A DNA stretch of 59,458 nt from contig JALHOD010000020.1 in the NCBI GenBank assembly GCA_022843165.1, positions 1 through 59,458 of the forward strand. The letters run 5' to 3'. This DNA comes from Pseudorhodoplanes sp. GTDB taxonomy: Bacteria; Pseudomonadota; Alphaproteobacteria; Rhizobiales; Xanthobacteraceae. The notes below the pieces were generated by a model. It was not told the origin of the DNA. It was given only the letters and a program-made list of their open reading frames with translations, and made no database searches. Of this stretch, positions 55,933 through 59,458 are shown one piece after another. Position 1 is the first letter of the stretch, and every line of letters starts with the position of its first letter. The position numbers and the translations under genes were made by a program.

Positions 55933-56159
55933 TTTCCGCGCCTCCCCGCCCCGAACGCCCTGTTTTTCCAGCGAAAAAAACGATCTTCCACCGCGAATAC
56001 GGGCATCGCCCGCCCGCCCTCGCGATTCCGGCTTTCGTTGCCATGTTGGGGCCGTCATGCTCGTAGAAACGCCGATCCTCGCGCGCGAGGACGGGGTTCC
56101 TCGCCGCGAGCACCTTGATCCTCGCTCCAAACAAAGAGAACACGTCCGTACACGCAGCC
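55933..56159. other. Intergenic region before the uvrD-like gene
   Basis: 227 bp without a gene. It is AT-rich near 55970-55990 and contains TCGCGCGCGAGG-type inverted sequences. No repeat element or consensus promoter assigned. Confidence 0.35.
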
Positions 56160-58838
56160 ATGTCCGATTCGACCAAGCCCCTTTCCGTTCCTCCGCCGCC
56201 CGCCTCGGGCGGCATCGCCGCGCGTGCGATGGCCGCCGCGCGCGGGGGCGCCGCCTATCTCGAGGGGCTGAACGCCGAGCAGCGCCTCGCCGTGGAGACG
56301 CTGGACGGCCCCGTGCTGGTGCTGGCGGGCGCCGGCACCGGCAAGACGCGCGTGCTCACCACCCGCATCGCCCATATCCTCAATCTCGGCCGCGCGCACC
56401 CTTCGCAAATTCTCGCCGTCACCTTCACCAACAAGGCCGCGCGCGAGATGAAGCTGCGCATCGGCCAGATGGTCGGCGGCGGCGTGATGGAGGGCATGCC
56501 CTGGCTCGGCACCTTCCACGCCATCGGGGTGAAGATCCTGCGCCGGCACGCCGAACTGGTCGGGCTGAAAAGCGGCTTCACGATCCTCGACACCGATGAC
56601 CAGATCCGCCTGATCAAGCAACTCCTCGAAGCCTTCAACATCGACGAGAAGCGCTGGCCGGCGCGCATCTTTGCCGGGATCATGGACGGCTGGAAAAACC
56701 GCGGGCTGACGCCCGACCAGATTCCCGGCGGCGAGGCGATGGCGTTTGCCAACGGGCGCGGCAAGGATCTCTATGTCGCCTATCAGGAACGGCTGAAGAC
56801 GCTGAACGCGGTCGATTTCGGCGACCTCCTGCTGGAGATGATCCGGCTGTTCCGGGAGAACCCGGACGTGCTGCGCGATTACCAGCGCCGTTTTCGCTAC
56901 ATCCTGGTGGACGAATATCAGGACACCAATGTCGCGCAGTATCTGTGGCTGCGGCTGCTGGCGCAGGCGCCGAGCGCGCCAAAAGGCGGCCTCATCCTTC
57001 GAGACGCATCGCTGCGCGATGCTCCTCAGGATGAGGGGGAAGATGGACGCACGCTGCGCAGTGCCTCTCAGGATGGGGAGAAAAGTGACAACGCGCTTGC
57101 CATCGATCCTCATCCTGAGGAGCGCGGCGGCACGCCGCGCGTCTCGAAGGATGAGGCCCCGGCGCGCGAACTCAAGAACATCTGCTGCGTCGGCGACGAC
57201 GACCAGTCGATCTATGGCTGGCGCGGGGCGGAGGTGGACAACATCCTCCGCTTTGAAAAGGATTTTCCCGGCGCGACGGTCGTCCGGCTGGAACGAAACT
57301 ACCGCAGCACGGGCCACATCCTCGCCGCCGCCTCGCACCTCATCGCCCACAACGAAGGACGACTGGGCAAGACTTTGCGCACCGAGGACGTGCCGGGCGA
57401 AAAGGTCACCGTCACCGGCTCCTGGGATTCGGAGGAGGAAGCGCGCTCCATCGGCGACGAGATCGAGGAATTGCAGCGCGCAAAACATAAATTGAACGAG
57501 ATCGCGATCCTGGTGCGCGCCTCGTTCCAGATGCGCGAATTCGAGGACCGCTTTGTCACGCTGGGCCTGCCTTATCGCGTGATCGGCGGACCTCGTTTCT
57601 ACGAGCGCGCGGAAATCCGCGATGCGCTGGCCTATCTGCGCGTGGTCAATTCCGCCTCCGACGATCTCGCCTTCGAGCGCATCGTCAATGTGCCGCGCCG
57701 GGGCCTGGGTGACGCGACGCTGCAGCAGCTTCACGACCATGCCCGCGCGCGGCGCATCCCGCTGTTCGAAGCCGCCCGCGCCATGATCGAGACCGACGAG
57801 CTGAAACCCAAGCCGCGCGGCTCCCTGCGCGATCTGGTCACCAGTTTCGAGCGCTGGCGCGCGCAGAACCAGACCCTGCCGCAGGACGAGCTGGCGGAGA
57901 TCGTGCTGGACGAGTCGGGCTACACCGCGATGTGGCAAAAAGACCGCTCGGCCGACGCCGCCGGCCGGCTGGAAAACCTCAAGGAGCTGGTGCGCTCCAT
58001 GCAGGACTTTGAAAATCTCTCCGGCTTCCTCGAACACATCTCGCTGGTGATGGACCGCGACGGCGAGGCCAATGCCGACGCCGTCAACATCATGACGCTG
58101 CATTCGGCCAAGGGGCTGGAATTCGACACCGTGTTCCTGCCCGGCTGGGAGGAAGGCCTGTTTCCTCACCAACGGTCATTGGACGAGACCGGCCGCGCGG
58201 GCCTGGAGGAAGAGCGAAGGCTGGCGCATGTGGGCTTAACGCGCGCGCGCAGGCGCGCCAAGCTCTATTTCGCCACCAACCGCCGCATGCACGGCATGTG
58301 GAACTCCACCATTCCCTCGCGCTTCCTCGACGAATTGCCGGAAGCGCATGTCGAGGTGACCGAAAGCAAGTCGAGCTTTGCCGGCGGCAGCGGCTATGCC
58401 GCCTCGCGCTTCGACTCATTCGCCGCCGGCGGCTCGAGCTATTCAACGCCCGGCTGGCAGCGCGCGCAGAAGAACCGCGCGAAGAAGGATGAGTTCGACG
58501 GTTTTGGCGACGAGGGCGCGGAATACGAGGCGGAGGCGCGCTTTCTCGATGCCGACGACAGCGGCGCCGCGCGCCCGGTGCAGTCCCCTCCCCCCTTGCG
58601 GGGGAGGTCGGCGGCCGAAGGCCGCCGGGTGGGGGGTCAGCGCCGTGAGCCTTTGACCATCGAAGGCGAACTGGTGGCCAAATCCACCGGCGCCTCGCAT
58701 TTCAGCGTGGGCGACCGGGTGTTTCACATCAAGTTCGGCAACGGCAACGTCACCGCCGTGGACGGCAACAAGCTGACGATTGCCTTCGACAAGGCGGGCG
58801 AAAAGCGGGTGGTGGACAGTTTTGTGGAGCGGGTGTGA
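56160..58838 (+). CDS. UvrD/PcrA-type DNA helicase with repeat-derived insertions
   Basis: 892 residues, longer than the usual 720-780. All SF1A motifs are present: GAGTGKTRVL (I), DEYQDTN (II), GDDDQSIYGWRGA (III), RNYRSTGHIL (IV), TLHSAKGLEFDTVFLPG (V) and VGLTRARRRAK (VI), and a C-terminal Tudor-like VGDRVFHIKFGNGNV. Between motif II and motif III about 55 extra residues (about 277-333) are encoded by palindromic repeats at 56990-57156; another 20 (about 808-827) by a second repeat class at 58585-58638. Start at 56160 gives MSDSTKPLSV. Unwinds DNA in repair or replication. Confidence 0.93.
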   Translation: MSDSTKPLSVPPPPASGGIAARAMAAARGGAAYLEGLNAEQRLAVETLDGPVLVLAGAGTGKTRVLTTRIAHILNLGRAHPSQILAVTFTNKAAREMKLRIGQMVGGGVMEGMPWLGTFHAIGVKILRRHAELVGLKSGFTILDTDDQIRLIKQLLEAFNIDEKRWPARIFAGIMDGWKNRGLTPDQIPGGEAMAFANGRGKDLYVAYQERLKTLNAVDFGDLLLEMIRLFRENPDVLRDYQRRFRYILVDEYQDTNVAQYLWLRLLAQAPSAPKGGLILRDASLRDAPQDEGEDGRTLRSASQDGEKSDNALAIDPHPEERGGTPRVSKDEAPARELKNICCVGDDDQSIYGWRGAEVDNILRFEKDFPGATVVRLERNYRSTGHILAAASHLIAHNEGRLGKTLRTEDVPGEKVTVTGSWDSEEEARSIGDEIEELQRAKHKLNEIAILVRASFQMREFEDRFVTLGLPYRVIGGPRFYERAEIRDALAYLRVVNSASDDLAFERIVNVPRRGLGDATLQQLHDHARARRIPLFEAARAMIETDELKPKPRGSLRDLVTSFERWRAQNQTLPQDELAEIVLDESGYTAMWQKDRSADAAGRLENLKELVRSMQDFENLSGFLEHISLVMDRDGEANADAVNIMTLHSAKGLEFDTVFLPGWEEGLFPHQRSLDETGRAGLEEERRLAHVGLTRARRRAKLYFATNRRMHGMWNSTIPSRFLDELPEAHVEVTESKSSFAGGSGYAASRFDSFAAGGSSYSTPGWQRAQKNRAKKDEFDGFGDEGAEYEAEARFLDADDSGAARPVQSPPPLRGRSAAEGRRVGGQRREPLTIEGELVAKSTGASHFSVGDRVFHIKFGNGNVTAVDGNKLTIAFDKAGEKRVVDSFVERV
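56990..57036 (+). repeat. Palindromic repeat element inside the helicase gene, copy 1
   Basis: 47 bp with perfect 9-bp ends CCTCATCCT/AGGATGAGG and an inner GCATCG/CGATGC hairpin. Of the type found many times between genes in Bradyrhizobium-related genomes (from memory). Read in frame as part of the protein. Confidence 0.75.
57040..57078 (+). repeat. Degenerate palindromic repeat, copy 2
   Basis: GATGGACGCACGCTGCGCAG then TGCCTCTCAGGATGGGG aligns with the second half of copy 1 (GACGCATCGCTGCGCGATGC then TCCTCAGGATGAGG) with several substitutions. It lies three bases after copy 1, in the same orientation. Confidence 0.55.
57108..57156 (-). repeat. Palindromic repeat element, copy 3 (inverted)
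   Basis: 49 bp with the same 9-bp ends CCTCATCCT/AGGATGAGG; the interior (GAGGAGCGCGGCGGCACGCC then GCGCGTCTCGA) corresponds to copy 1 read on the other strand, where TCGAGACGC lies next to the other end. Confidence 0.75.
58585..58638 (+). repeat. Second class of palindromic repeat in the helicase gene
   Basis: CCCCTCCCCCCTTGCGGGGG pairs CCCC(CC) with GGGG, then GGTCGGCGGCCGAAGGCCGC and CGGGTGGGGGGT. This C-rich/G-rich pattern is common between genes in rhizobial genomes. It is translated as SPPPLRGRSAAEGRRVGGQ. Confidence 0.65.
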
Positions 58839-59029: not shown

Positions 59030-59224
59030 ATGCTGAGAGACAGTCGACAAATCATCGCTCGCTTAAGGCAAGAGGGCTTTGAAGAAGTAGCGGTGCGCGG
59101 CTCGCATCATAAATACGTACATCGCGCAACGCGCCGCATGGTGATCGTGACGCATCCGCGCAAGGATATTCCACTTGGCACCGTGCGTTCGATTTACAAG
59201 CACGCGGGCTGGGCGAAGGACTAG
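59030..59224 (+). CDS. hicA: HicA toxin
   Basis: 64 residues from the ATG at 59030. MLRDSRQIIARLRQEGFEEV, then GSHHKYVHRATRRMVIVTHP with the catalytic His, and KDIPLGTVRSIYKHAGW: the dsRBD-like HicA mRNA interferase. Standard partner order with hicB, 17 bp apart. Confidence 0.9.
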   Translation: MLRDSRQIIARLRQEGFEEVAVRGSHHKYVHRATRRMVIVTHPRKDIPLGTVRSIYKHAGWAKD

Positions 59225-59241
59225 GACGCAAGGACATAGCG

Positions 59242-59458
59242 ATGACTCACTATATCGCGCTCATCCATAAGGACCCGGATTCGGGCTACGGCGTGTCGTT
59301 TCCCGACCTGCCGGGCGTGATCACCGGCGGCGACACCATCGACGAAGCGATGCGGAACGCACCAGACGTCCTGGCCTTTGCCGCCGAGGACTGGACCGAG
59401 CAGACCGGCCGCCCCTTCCCGCAGCCGCGCAGCATCGACGACTTGCGCAAGGATGCCG
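59242..59458 (+). CDS. hicB: HicB antitoxin, cut by the window end
   Basis: 72 codons seen. MTHYIALIHKDPDSGYGVSF, then PDLPGVITGGDTIDEAM is the HicB RNase H-like fold; the DNA-binding C-terminus lies outside the window. AAGGAC is upstream of the ATG. Neutralises HicA and probably represses the pair. Confidence 0.88.
   Translation, partial: MTHYIALIHKDPDSGYGVSFPDLPGVITGGDTIDEAMRNAPDVLAFAAEDWTEQTGRPFPQPRSIDDLRKDA

Follow-up and report, generated by a model that had tools for sequence, protein, structure and literature searches.

Palindromic repeats of several REP-type families occupy, in frame, one loop of the UvrD helicase in Pseudorhodoplanes and its relatives

In Rickettsia, work by Ogata and colleagues in 2000 and 2002 is said to have described palindromic elements (Rickettsia palindromic elements, RPE) as a single family of repeats spread over many genes. 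Repetitive extragenic palindromic (REP) sequences of the GTAG and CGTC super-families are mostly intergenic and commonly dimeric, and many of them hit genes for DNA synthesis or repair; in-frame insertions into the genes of the UvrD/REP helicase and into uvrA, uvrB and recB have been known since 2013, with mutator speculation attached and polA as another of the genes hit (Di Nocera et al., PMC3733652). According to the same paper, different REPs stand at roughly one position of recB in two Xanthomonas species, and no transposase was found for the CGTC-type repeats. The latter have been suggested to be dying out. Further relatives are Br-REP1, described from about 200 intergenic sites of Bradyrhizobium USDA 110, and Br-REP2, described from at least 50 (Hahn et al. 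2016, PMC5082802), and the REPIN/BIME elements, inverse pairs of palindromes moved by RAYT transposases (PMC3116915, PMC2817692). Here, we describe a uvrD/pcrA-type DNA helicase gene on a 59,458-nucleotide stretch of Pseudorhodoplanes sp. (contig JALHOD010000020.1, the whole of which is called the window) in which palindromic repeats lie in frame within one loop of the protein. In relatives, this loop is filled by palindromic dimers that belong to four or more families: A (that of the window), B (a CGTC-type REP), C (a Br-REP1/2 composite) and D (CCCTCTCCCCG...).

The uvrD frame of the window is uninterrupted (Table 1), and a profile search identified the UvrD-helicase, UvrD_C and PcrA_UvrD_tudor domains in its 892-aa product, with PF00580 and PF13361 (Pfam) flanking the insert on either side. 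The best NCBIfam match is pcrA, at 761.8 bits under the equivalog cut-off of 911.2; both SF1A helicase domains are present with intact motifs, which places the protein among the UvrD/PcrA helicases, with an activity predicted from the sequence. An earlier note on this DNA had described, between what we take to be helicase motifs II (DEYQDT) and III (GDDDQSIYGWRGA), two palindromic elements of 47–49 bp in inverse orientation with a degenerate copy, and an open frame to which the repeats add about 55 residues. Both observations hold. The loop from DEYQDTN to VGDDDQSIY measures 86 residues in the window vs 19–31, mostly 19–23, in 46 short-loop rows of the comparison below, and the net gain is therefore about 55–67 residues. 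The predicted RNA fold of positions 56980–57165 reaches −118 kcal/mol vs −75 ± 4.6 for shuffled sequences (z −9.4; 0/200 shuffles as good), and a known structured RNA was rejected, Rfam at E up to 0.1 giving a sub-threshold mir-632 match only (27 vs 67 bits). Element 1 has a 98% match over 51 bp elsewhere in its own genome (E 1.4e-18), so a chance repeat was rejected. As an in-frame palindrome in an otherwise intact gene, the insert resembles RPE in plan, and the parallel drawn by the earlier note was a fair one; the difference is that one RPE family is reportedly spread over many genes, whereas several families share one site here. A comparison by eye with the counterpart of element 3 in a same-genus locus (L011) showed the same central loop and three differing arm positions, and it is these three differences that let the arms of element 3 pair perfectly with those of element 1; a possible cause is hairpin-templated correction or gene conversion.

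Table 1. Features of the uvrD gene in the window and of its in-frame repeats.
Feature	Position	Strand	Basis or remark
uvrD/pcrA-type DNA helicase gene, 892 aa	56160..58838	+	ATG 56160; open frame from TTG 56115
Presumed helicase motif II, DEYQDT	56910..56927	+	sequence reading
Presumed helicase motif III, GDDDQSIYGWRGA	57192..57230	+	sequence reading
69 codons between ...WLRLLAQ and KNICC; short turn in short-loop relatives	56967..57173	+	sequence, alignments
Family A palindromic element, copy 1 (element 1)	56988..57036	+	98% over 51 bp to other genome place
Degenerate family A remnant, 3' part only	57046..57078	+	82% over 34 bp
Family A palindromic element, copy 2 (element 3), inverse	57108..57158	-	repeat comparison
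Outer inverted-repeat arm	56988..57007	+	20/20 pairing with 57139-57158
Outer inverted-repeat arm, partner	57139..57158	-	pairs with 56988-57007
Inner inverted-repeat arm	57021..57036	+	16/16 pairing with 57108-57123
Second in-frame palindromic repeat, C-terminal linker before tudor domain, PPPLRGRSAAEGRRVGG	58584..58637	+	79% over 68 bp to same-genome L177

Searching the 3.87-Mb assembly of the window's own genome with the insert gave 43 matches, a lower bound since 40 of 65 candidates were scored; they correspond to uvrD and at least 14 other places, many of them inverse pairs. Nineteen regions with copies of A or of other families, together with one Y1_Tnp locus, were checked for genes by means of a codon model for which the window served as training sequence. 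The elements lie between genes, as the earlier note had expected, except for one in an ambiguous, spurious-looking frame (L165) and weak D matches in the frames of L175 and L177. The inverse pairs are a likeness to REPIN/BIME elements; the difference is that RAYT was tied to none of families A–D: the own genome, to which this check was confined, has one Y1_Tnp match (25.5 bits vs a cut-off of 23), and no A–D element was found in its 2.6-kb locus (L179).

UvrD was matched in 61/61 genomes searched (in G027 as a C-terminal fragment only), of which the best 30 were fetched, and the best 80 of at least 588 stretches were taken from a titled-genome set. Rows dropped in the analysis as a whole were four duplicates (L001, which equals L009, and L039, L041 and L057), three without the motif pattern (L028, L098 and L114) and one off target (L359). 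Loops of 19–31 residues were found in most Rhizobium and Agrobacterium and in Caulobacter, Hyphomicrobium and others. Most loci fetched from the window's family have loops of 36–245 residues, as do some Mesorhizobium, Aurantimonas, Ensifer and other relatives; two loci within the window's family, L029 and L037, have short loops (19 residues). Of the 61 genomes, the query dimer of A had a match in 33, that of B in 41, that of C in 24 and that of D in 37, the copy numbers per genome being lower bounds as 13–14 candidates were scored in each. In the window's family (37 genomes), 29 loops were read and 18 of them hold a recognised repeat family; one recognised case lies outside the bacterial family (L058, Mesorhizobium). 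The in-frame insertion noticed earlier is therefore part of a wider picture, in which the loop is filled across much of the bacterial family, to which Bradyrhizobium belongs, by at least four families of repeats. Long inserts of non-repeat DNA in other UvrDs, which the earlier note had considered as counter-evidence, do occur in part: in 23/104 rows a long loop (36–98 aa) matches none of A–D, and, by eye, some of them (L014, L068 and L096) look palindromic and others do not, so that a long loop need not consist of recognisable repeat DNA. The longest loop, of 245 residues in a 1107-aa UvrD frame (L026, genome G007), is a stack of B, C and D repeats.

Family B fits the published plan of CGTC-type REPs, an 8–9 bp stem starting with AT, a 4–5 nt loop and a CCA tail (PMC3733652): read by eye, the L054 loop has an unpaired CGTC tag at one end, then ATTGCCGGG, in the arrangement ATTGCCGGG-CTTGA-CCCGGCAAT-CCA. 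Family A lacks a CGTC or CCTC tag outside an 8–9 bp stem with a 4–5 nt loop, its would-be tag being inside the terminal stem because, at the two ends of the element, CCTCATCCT is paired to AGGATGAGG. By eye, family C carries CCGGAATCTCGAGATTCCGG, the core of Br-REP1, or similar variants interrupted by a spacer, plus a second half that resembles Br-REP2; the main text of PMC5082802 does not contain the words helicase, UvrD or "in frame". Some C elements (L475, L484 and others) contain, by eye, a further small TGCGCAATTGCGCA-like palindrome in frame.

A second set comprised 147 genomes, inferred to be Bradyrhizobium and drawn evenly from a larger group, in which 145 loops were readable. All 145 are open and 53–108 aa long, none being short, and a family was recognised in 135: C in 69, D in 49, B in 16 and C plus D in one (seven loops with the label AD went into the D count, their A match being weak at 34 bits). 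The 10 unrecognised loops still measure 54–93 aa. When loops reached end to end were counted, 145/146 were open; L505 ends at a contig edge. The exception, L504 (G085), has a 205-nt loop with a D element that breaks the frame, possibly at a C run in the element, and may be a real mutation or a sequencing error. It is also important to note that several Bradyrhizobium genomes are present in both L042–L054/L104 and L360–L506. They inflate the row counts of the comparisons of inserts with own-genome copies, of the first copy-origin tree and of the B-loop distances; they were removed for the second copy-origin tree and are absent from the Bradyrhizobium loop counts, family tree and remnant counts. 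L360, a duplicate of L020, was left out of the first copy-origin tree.

On a tree of the 104 UvrDs, built without the loop and the C-terminus, the families are scattered like shuffled labels, A requiring 9 changes for 9 rows, B 5 for 5, C 8 for 8 and D 12 for 12. Short loops cluster on this tree (46 rows, 10 changes, 0/500 shuffles as low), and all labels together gave 38 changes vs 53.1 for shuffled labels (0/200 as low). In the Bradyrhizobium DNA tree (143), the 132 B, C and D rows required 49 changes, close to the shuffled mean of 52.3 (33/200 as low); taken singly, B (15 vs 15.4) and D (41 vs 39.4) behaved as shuffled, and well-supported branches of this tree force 26 changes for C, 30 for D and 13 for B. 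The family differs in 4/6 pairs at 2–3% gene divergence, in 51% of 39 pairs at 3–4% and in about 60% of distant pairs. Nested remnants (STRATIGRAPHY) were identified by peptide pattern: the start of a C element stands ahead of a full C in 30 loops and ahead of D in 9, and an old 3' end lies outside the newer element in L463, L483 and L506. In the close loci L454 (D) and L456 (C), 2.4% apart, the left margin is common up to GTCATTCCGGG and then diverges. These data show that the gene tree says little about which family a loop holds and that in some loops newer elements lie within or against older remnants.

In the first set, the frame used is open in each of the 58 long loops, and every one of the other five frames in 16–28/58. 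The near-full genomic copies (6 B, 14 C, 6 + 4 D) have mixed lengths modulo 3, except for the last four D, are often closed in any given frame and are open in frames other than that of uvrD too. This indicates that the frame has been filtered by selection and, presumably, that the loop is translated. In an alignment, the insert takes the place of the turn at about residues 237–242 of E. coli UvrD, at a sheet edge that, in RecA-like folds, lies opposite the nucleotide-binding edge. The tolerance so near to an ATPase motif is thus less surprising than the earlier note had it: what is replaced is a short turn that joins the helix following motif II to the strand toward motif III. Disorder-promoting residues make up 79% of the loop vs 60% of UvrD residues 60–300. 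The frame used is the most hydrophilic open frame in 23/53 loops vs 17.9 expected, and there is no clear choice of peptide by hydrophilicity.

Genomic copies of A–D were used as queries against the 104 loci. They gave 54 matches within the loop (35 loci, 15.3 kb), 4 in the remaining 258 kb of uvrD frames, of which three lie in the C-terminal linker and one near a frame start, and 13 in 482 kb of flanks. The ratio is only descriptive because the inserts themselves lengthen the loop. In the 40 loci with the best element matches (L120–L159), an element lies within a gene in eight cases: six uvrD, one uvrA and one uvrB. A further 59 element loci, taken non-randomly from the matches listed for the complete genomes G005, G007, G031 and G034 and excluding the places already known in uvrD and the one in uvrB of G007, had 2/90 matches in called genes, in hrpB (L311) and in a doubtful gene start (L345). 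At L311 (G005) a family C element lies in frame inside the hrpB helicase gene, whose identity was confirmed by NCBIfam. For uvrB, 8/30 loci had matches in the C-terminal linker, all of family D and two of them weak, and L213 had two more ahead of the UvrB domain, maybe before the true start; the UvrB of the window's own genome (L215) has a family D match in this linker (42.8 bits). For uvrA, 5/30 loci were found by script, of which L180, L181 and L189 are trusted, L187 is weak and L207 spurious. That all nucleotide-excision-repair genes are hit was rejected, as UvrC (27 frames, 30 loci) gave two matches, both on the conserved RDEAHRFA protein sequence. MutL had an in-frame element in 0/30 loci although its flanks gave 13 matches. 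By eye, B in uvrA has the opposite orientation, the 5' A in uvrA another frame, and C in hrpB the uvrD frame. In a plasmid collection D fragments were found in 63 records, and neither B nor C gave a match at E 1e-5; in viral contigs the D pattern occurred in three stretches on two contigs and the C or B pattern in none.

We favour, at roughly two chances in three, a tolerated and frame-filtered colonisation of the UvrD loop by REP-type repeats, followed by turnover. A pair of such repeats would have entered the loop, where the open frame suggests that it is translated; the loop, at the far and presumably exposed edge of the 1A ATPase domain, would tolerate added disordered sequence, and insertions that keep the frame would survive, others being purged. 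As the families in residence document, at least four have entered in different lineages, probably by a limited number of original insertions each, with later replacement confined to the loop, either through exchange of very short tracts between species or through new insertions into an old palindrome, or both. The copy trees and the constant orientation and frame of B and D, both given below, speak for few origins, and the low flank divergence of close pairs with different families speaks for replacement within the loop. The added peptide is most likely without a specific role.

Several observations weigh against this account. The uvrD gene is near linkage equilibrium beyond about 30 bp, which weakens the gene tree used to count changes and leaves the flank tests little reach; a test of linkage between family and flank has little power. 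Few origins are not firmly established because same-genus genomic copies are thin, with 2 distinct Bradyrhizobium C copies. The scatter is incomplete, family C being clustered in Bradyrhizobium (36 changes vs 44.1, 5/500 as low), and 9/70 C loops align best in reverse, the dimer being nearly self-complementary. Element 1 of the window looks fresh, at 98% to its own genome vs 80–88% to other uvrD loops. Five unfetched genomes of the window's family (G013, G020, G022, G025 and G030) have short loops by alignment spacing; since the choice of the best 30 favours loops like the query, the fetched loci overstate occupancy. Finally, MutL also has a flexible linker, and tolerance alone leaves its 0/30 unexplained.

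Repeated fresh insertion is possible but rather unlikely: still-mobile repeats of each genome would land again and again, preferring existing palindromes, and the occupants would be recent. The nested remnants, the stack in L026 and the resemblance of element 1 to its own genome are in keeping with it, as is the match of the 5' A elements of uvrD to genomic copies at 0–2 arm differences. So are family swaps without imported flanks: in 11 close pairs with different families (gene 2.9%), the flanks differ by 1.8% within 30 bp and 2.05% within 60, vs 3.3% and 2.9% in 10 close same-family pairs and 4.5–4.9% in distant pairs, the pairs being not independent. However, the B inserts of L020 and L026 are nearer to uvrD loops of other species (94% over 105 bp and 92% over 85 bp) than to the copies on hand, a part of those in each genome, from their own genomes (84% over 62 bp and 76% over 85 bp). 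The Pseudorhodoplanes B loop L012 lies 0.17–0.20 from five Bradyrhizobium/Rhodopseudomonas loops and 0.22 from L442, vs 0.25–0.31 from genomic copies of its own genus and 0.21 from an other-genus genomic copy (L131). In the aligned loops, B (16/16) and D (48/48) keep one orientation and frame, though near-full genomic copies are open in others too; C does so in 51/70 (this stricter alignment count replaces a loose peptide-pattern count of 70/70 for C and 48/49 for D). Six 3' A elements are of a uvrD-type variant, or nearly so, common to several genera. In the copy trees, the uvrD copies separate from other copies by 2 (B), 3 (C) and 3 (D) changes, or by 1, 2 and 3 with duplicates. Given the copy trees, the similarity across species and the constancy of orientation and frame, fresh insertion at every loop was rejected as the sole reading.

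An equally tentative alternative is that a few ancient loop alleles circulate by homologous recombination, no new element having entered for a long time. The trees with few origins and the decay of linkage within about 30 bp agree with such exchange, and in 151/3526 same-family pairs the loops are more alike than the third codon positions of the genes (L361/L365, 2.1% vs 17.4%). Against it, flank divergence is not raised in the pairs that switched family, nested and stacked elements require additions, and the A element of the window looks young.

A more doubtful proposal, which we consider unlikely, sees in the loop an actively used landing site: the repeats, including those of the CGTC type, would still be mobile and would enter uvrD more than uvrB and uvrA, beyond what tolerance allows, through a target preference or through an alteration of repair that aids their persistence.

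That the insert is functional, loop length or an mRNA hairpin regulating UvrD and the repeats being recruited as a handy spacer, seems improbable. Short loops in only 3/48 rows of the window's clade (a biased set, with at least 5 more short loops unfetched), the still long unrecognised Bradyrhizobium loops, the very stable RNA fold, and elements in uvrD, uvrB and uvrA with none trusted in UvrC or MutL would fit a function; on the other hand, sequence and length are free (19–245 aa), many related genera keep a loop of 19–31 aa, and the hydrophilicity counts reveal no clear choice of peptide. An assembly or frame error, which the 37 contigs of the window's genome might suggest, was rejected as having practically no chance, since inserts of this kind recur in relatives, in many assemblies independent of one another, the single-contig G005, G007 and G031 among them.

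In-frame REPs in repair genes, that of UvrD included, were already known (PMC3733652), and the present elements resemble these intragenic GTAG and CGTC repeats in being short palindromes, some in frame, and in forming dimers. That paper gives cases per genome, whereas here one loop receives at least four families with turnover between close species. Of such multi-family turnover in one UvrD loop across a bacterial family we found no earlier report in the open-access literature, supplements aside. REP-type repeats have long been known, yet the manner and frequency of their movement are mostly unclear. The uvrD loop, which in well over a hundred species holds one of a few repeat families, in some with remnants of earlier ones, is a natural record of how repeats are gained, lost and exchanged that can be read by PCR in strain collections, and a conserved repair helicase that absorbs up to about 220 residues of palindromic DNA is a clear case of proteins gaining sequence.

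Besides the loop, the C-terminal linker of the window's UvrD contains the second in-frame repeat listed in Table 1, and repeat-like peptides similar by eye occur in this linker in five other same-genus genomes (L010, L011, L015, L026 and L028). Antisense to uvrD, a 705-aa open frame (56055–58172, minus strand) crosses the insert and is probably a by-product of the high GC content. Downstream of uvrD, a small gene pair at 59030–59458 resembles by eye what we presume to be a HicA/HicB toxin-antitoxin system.

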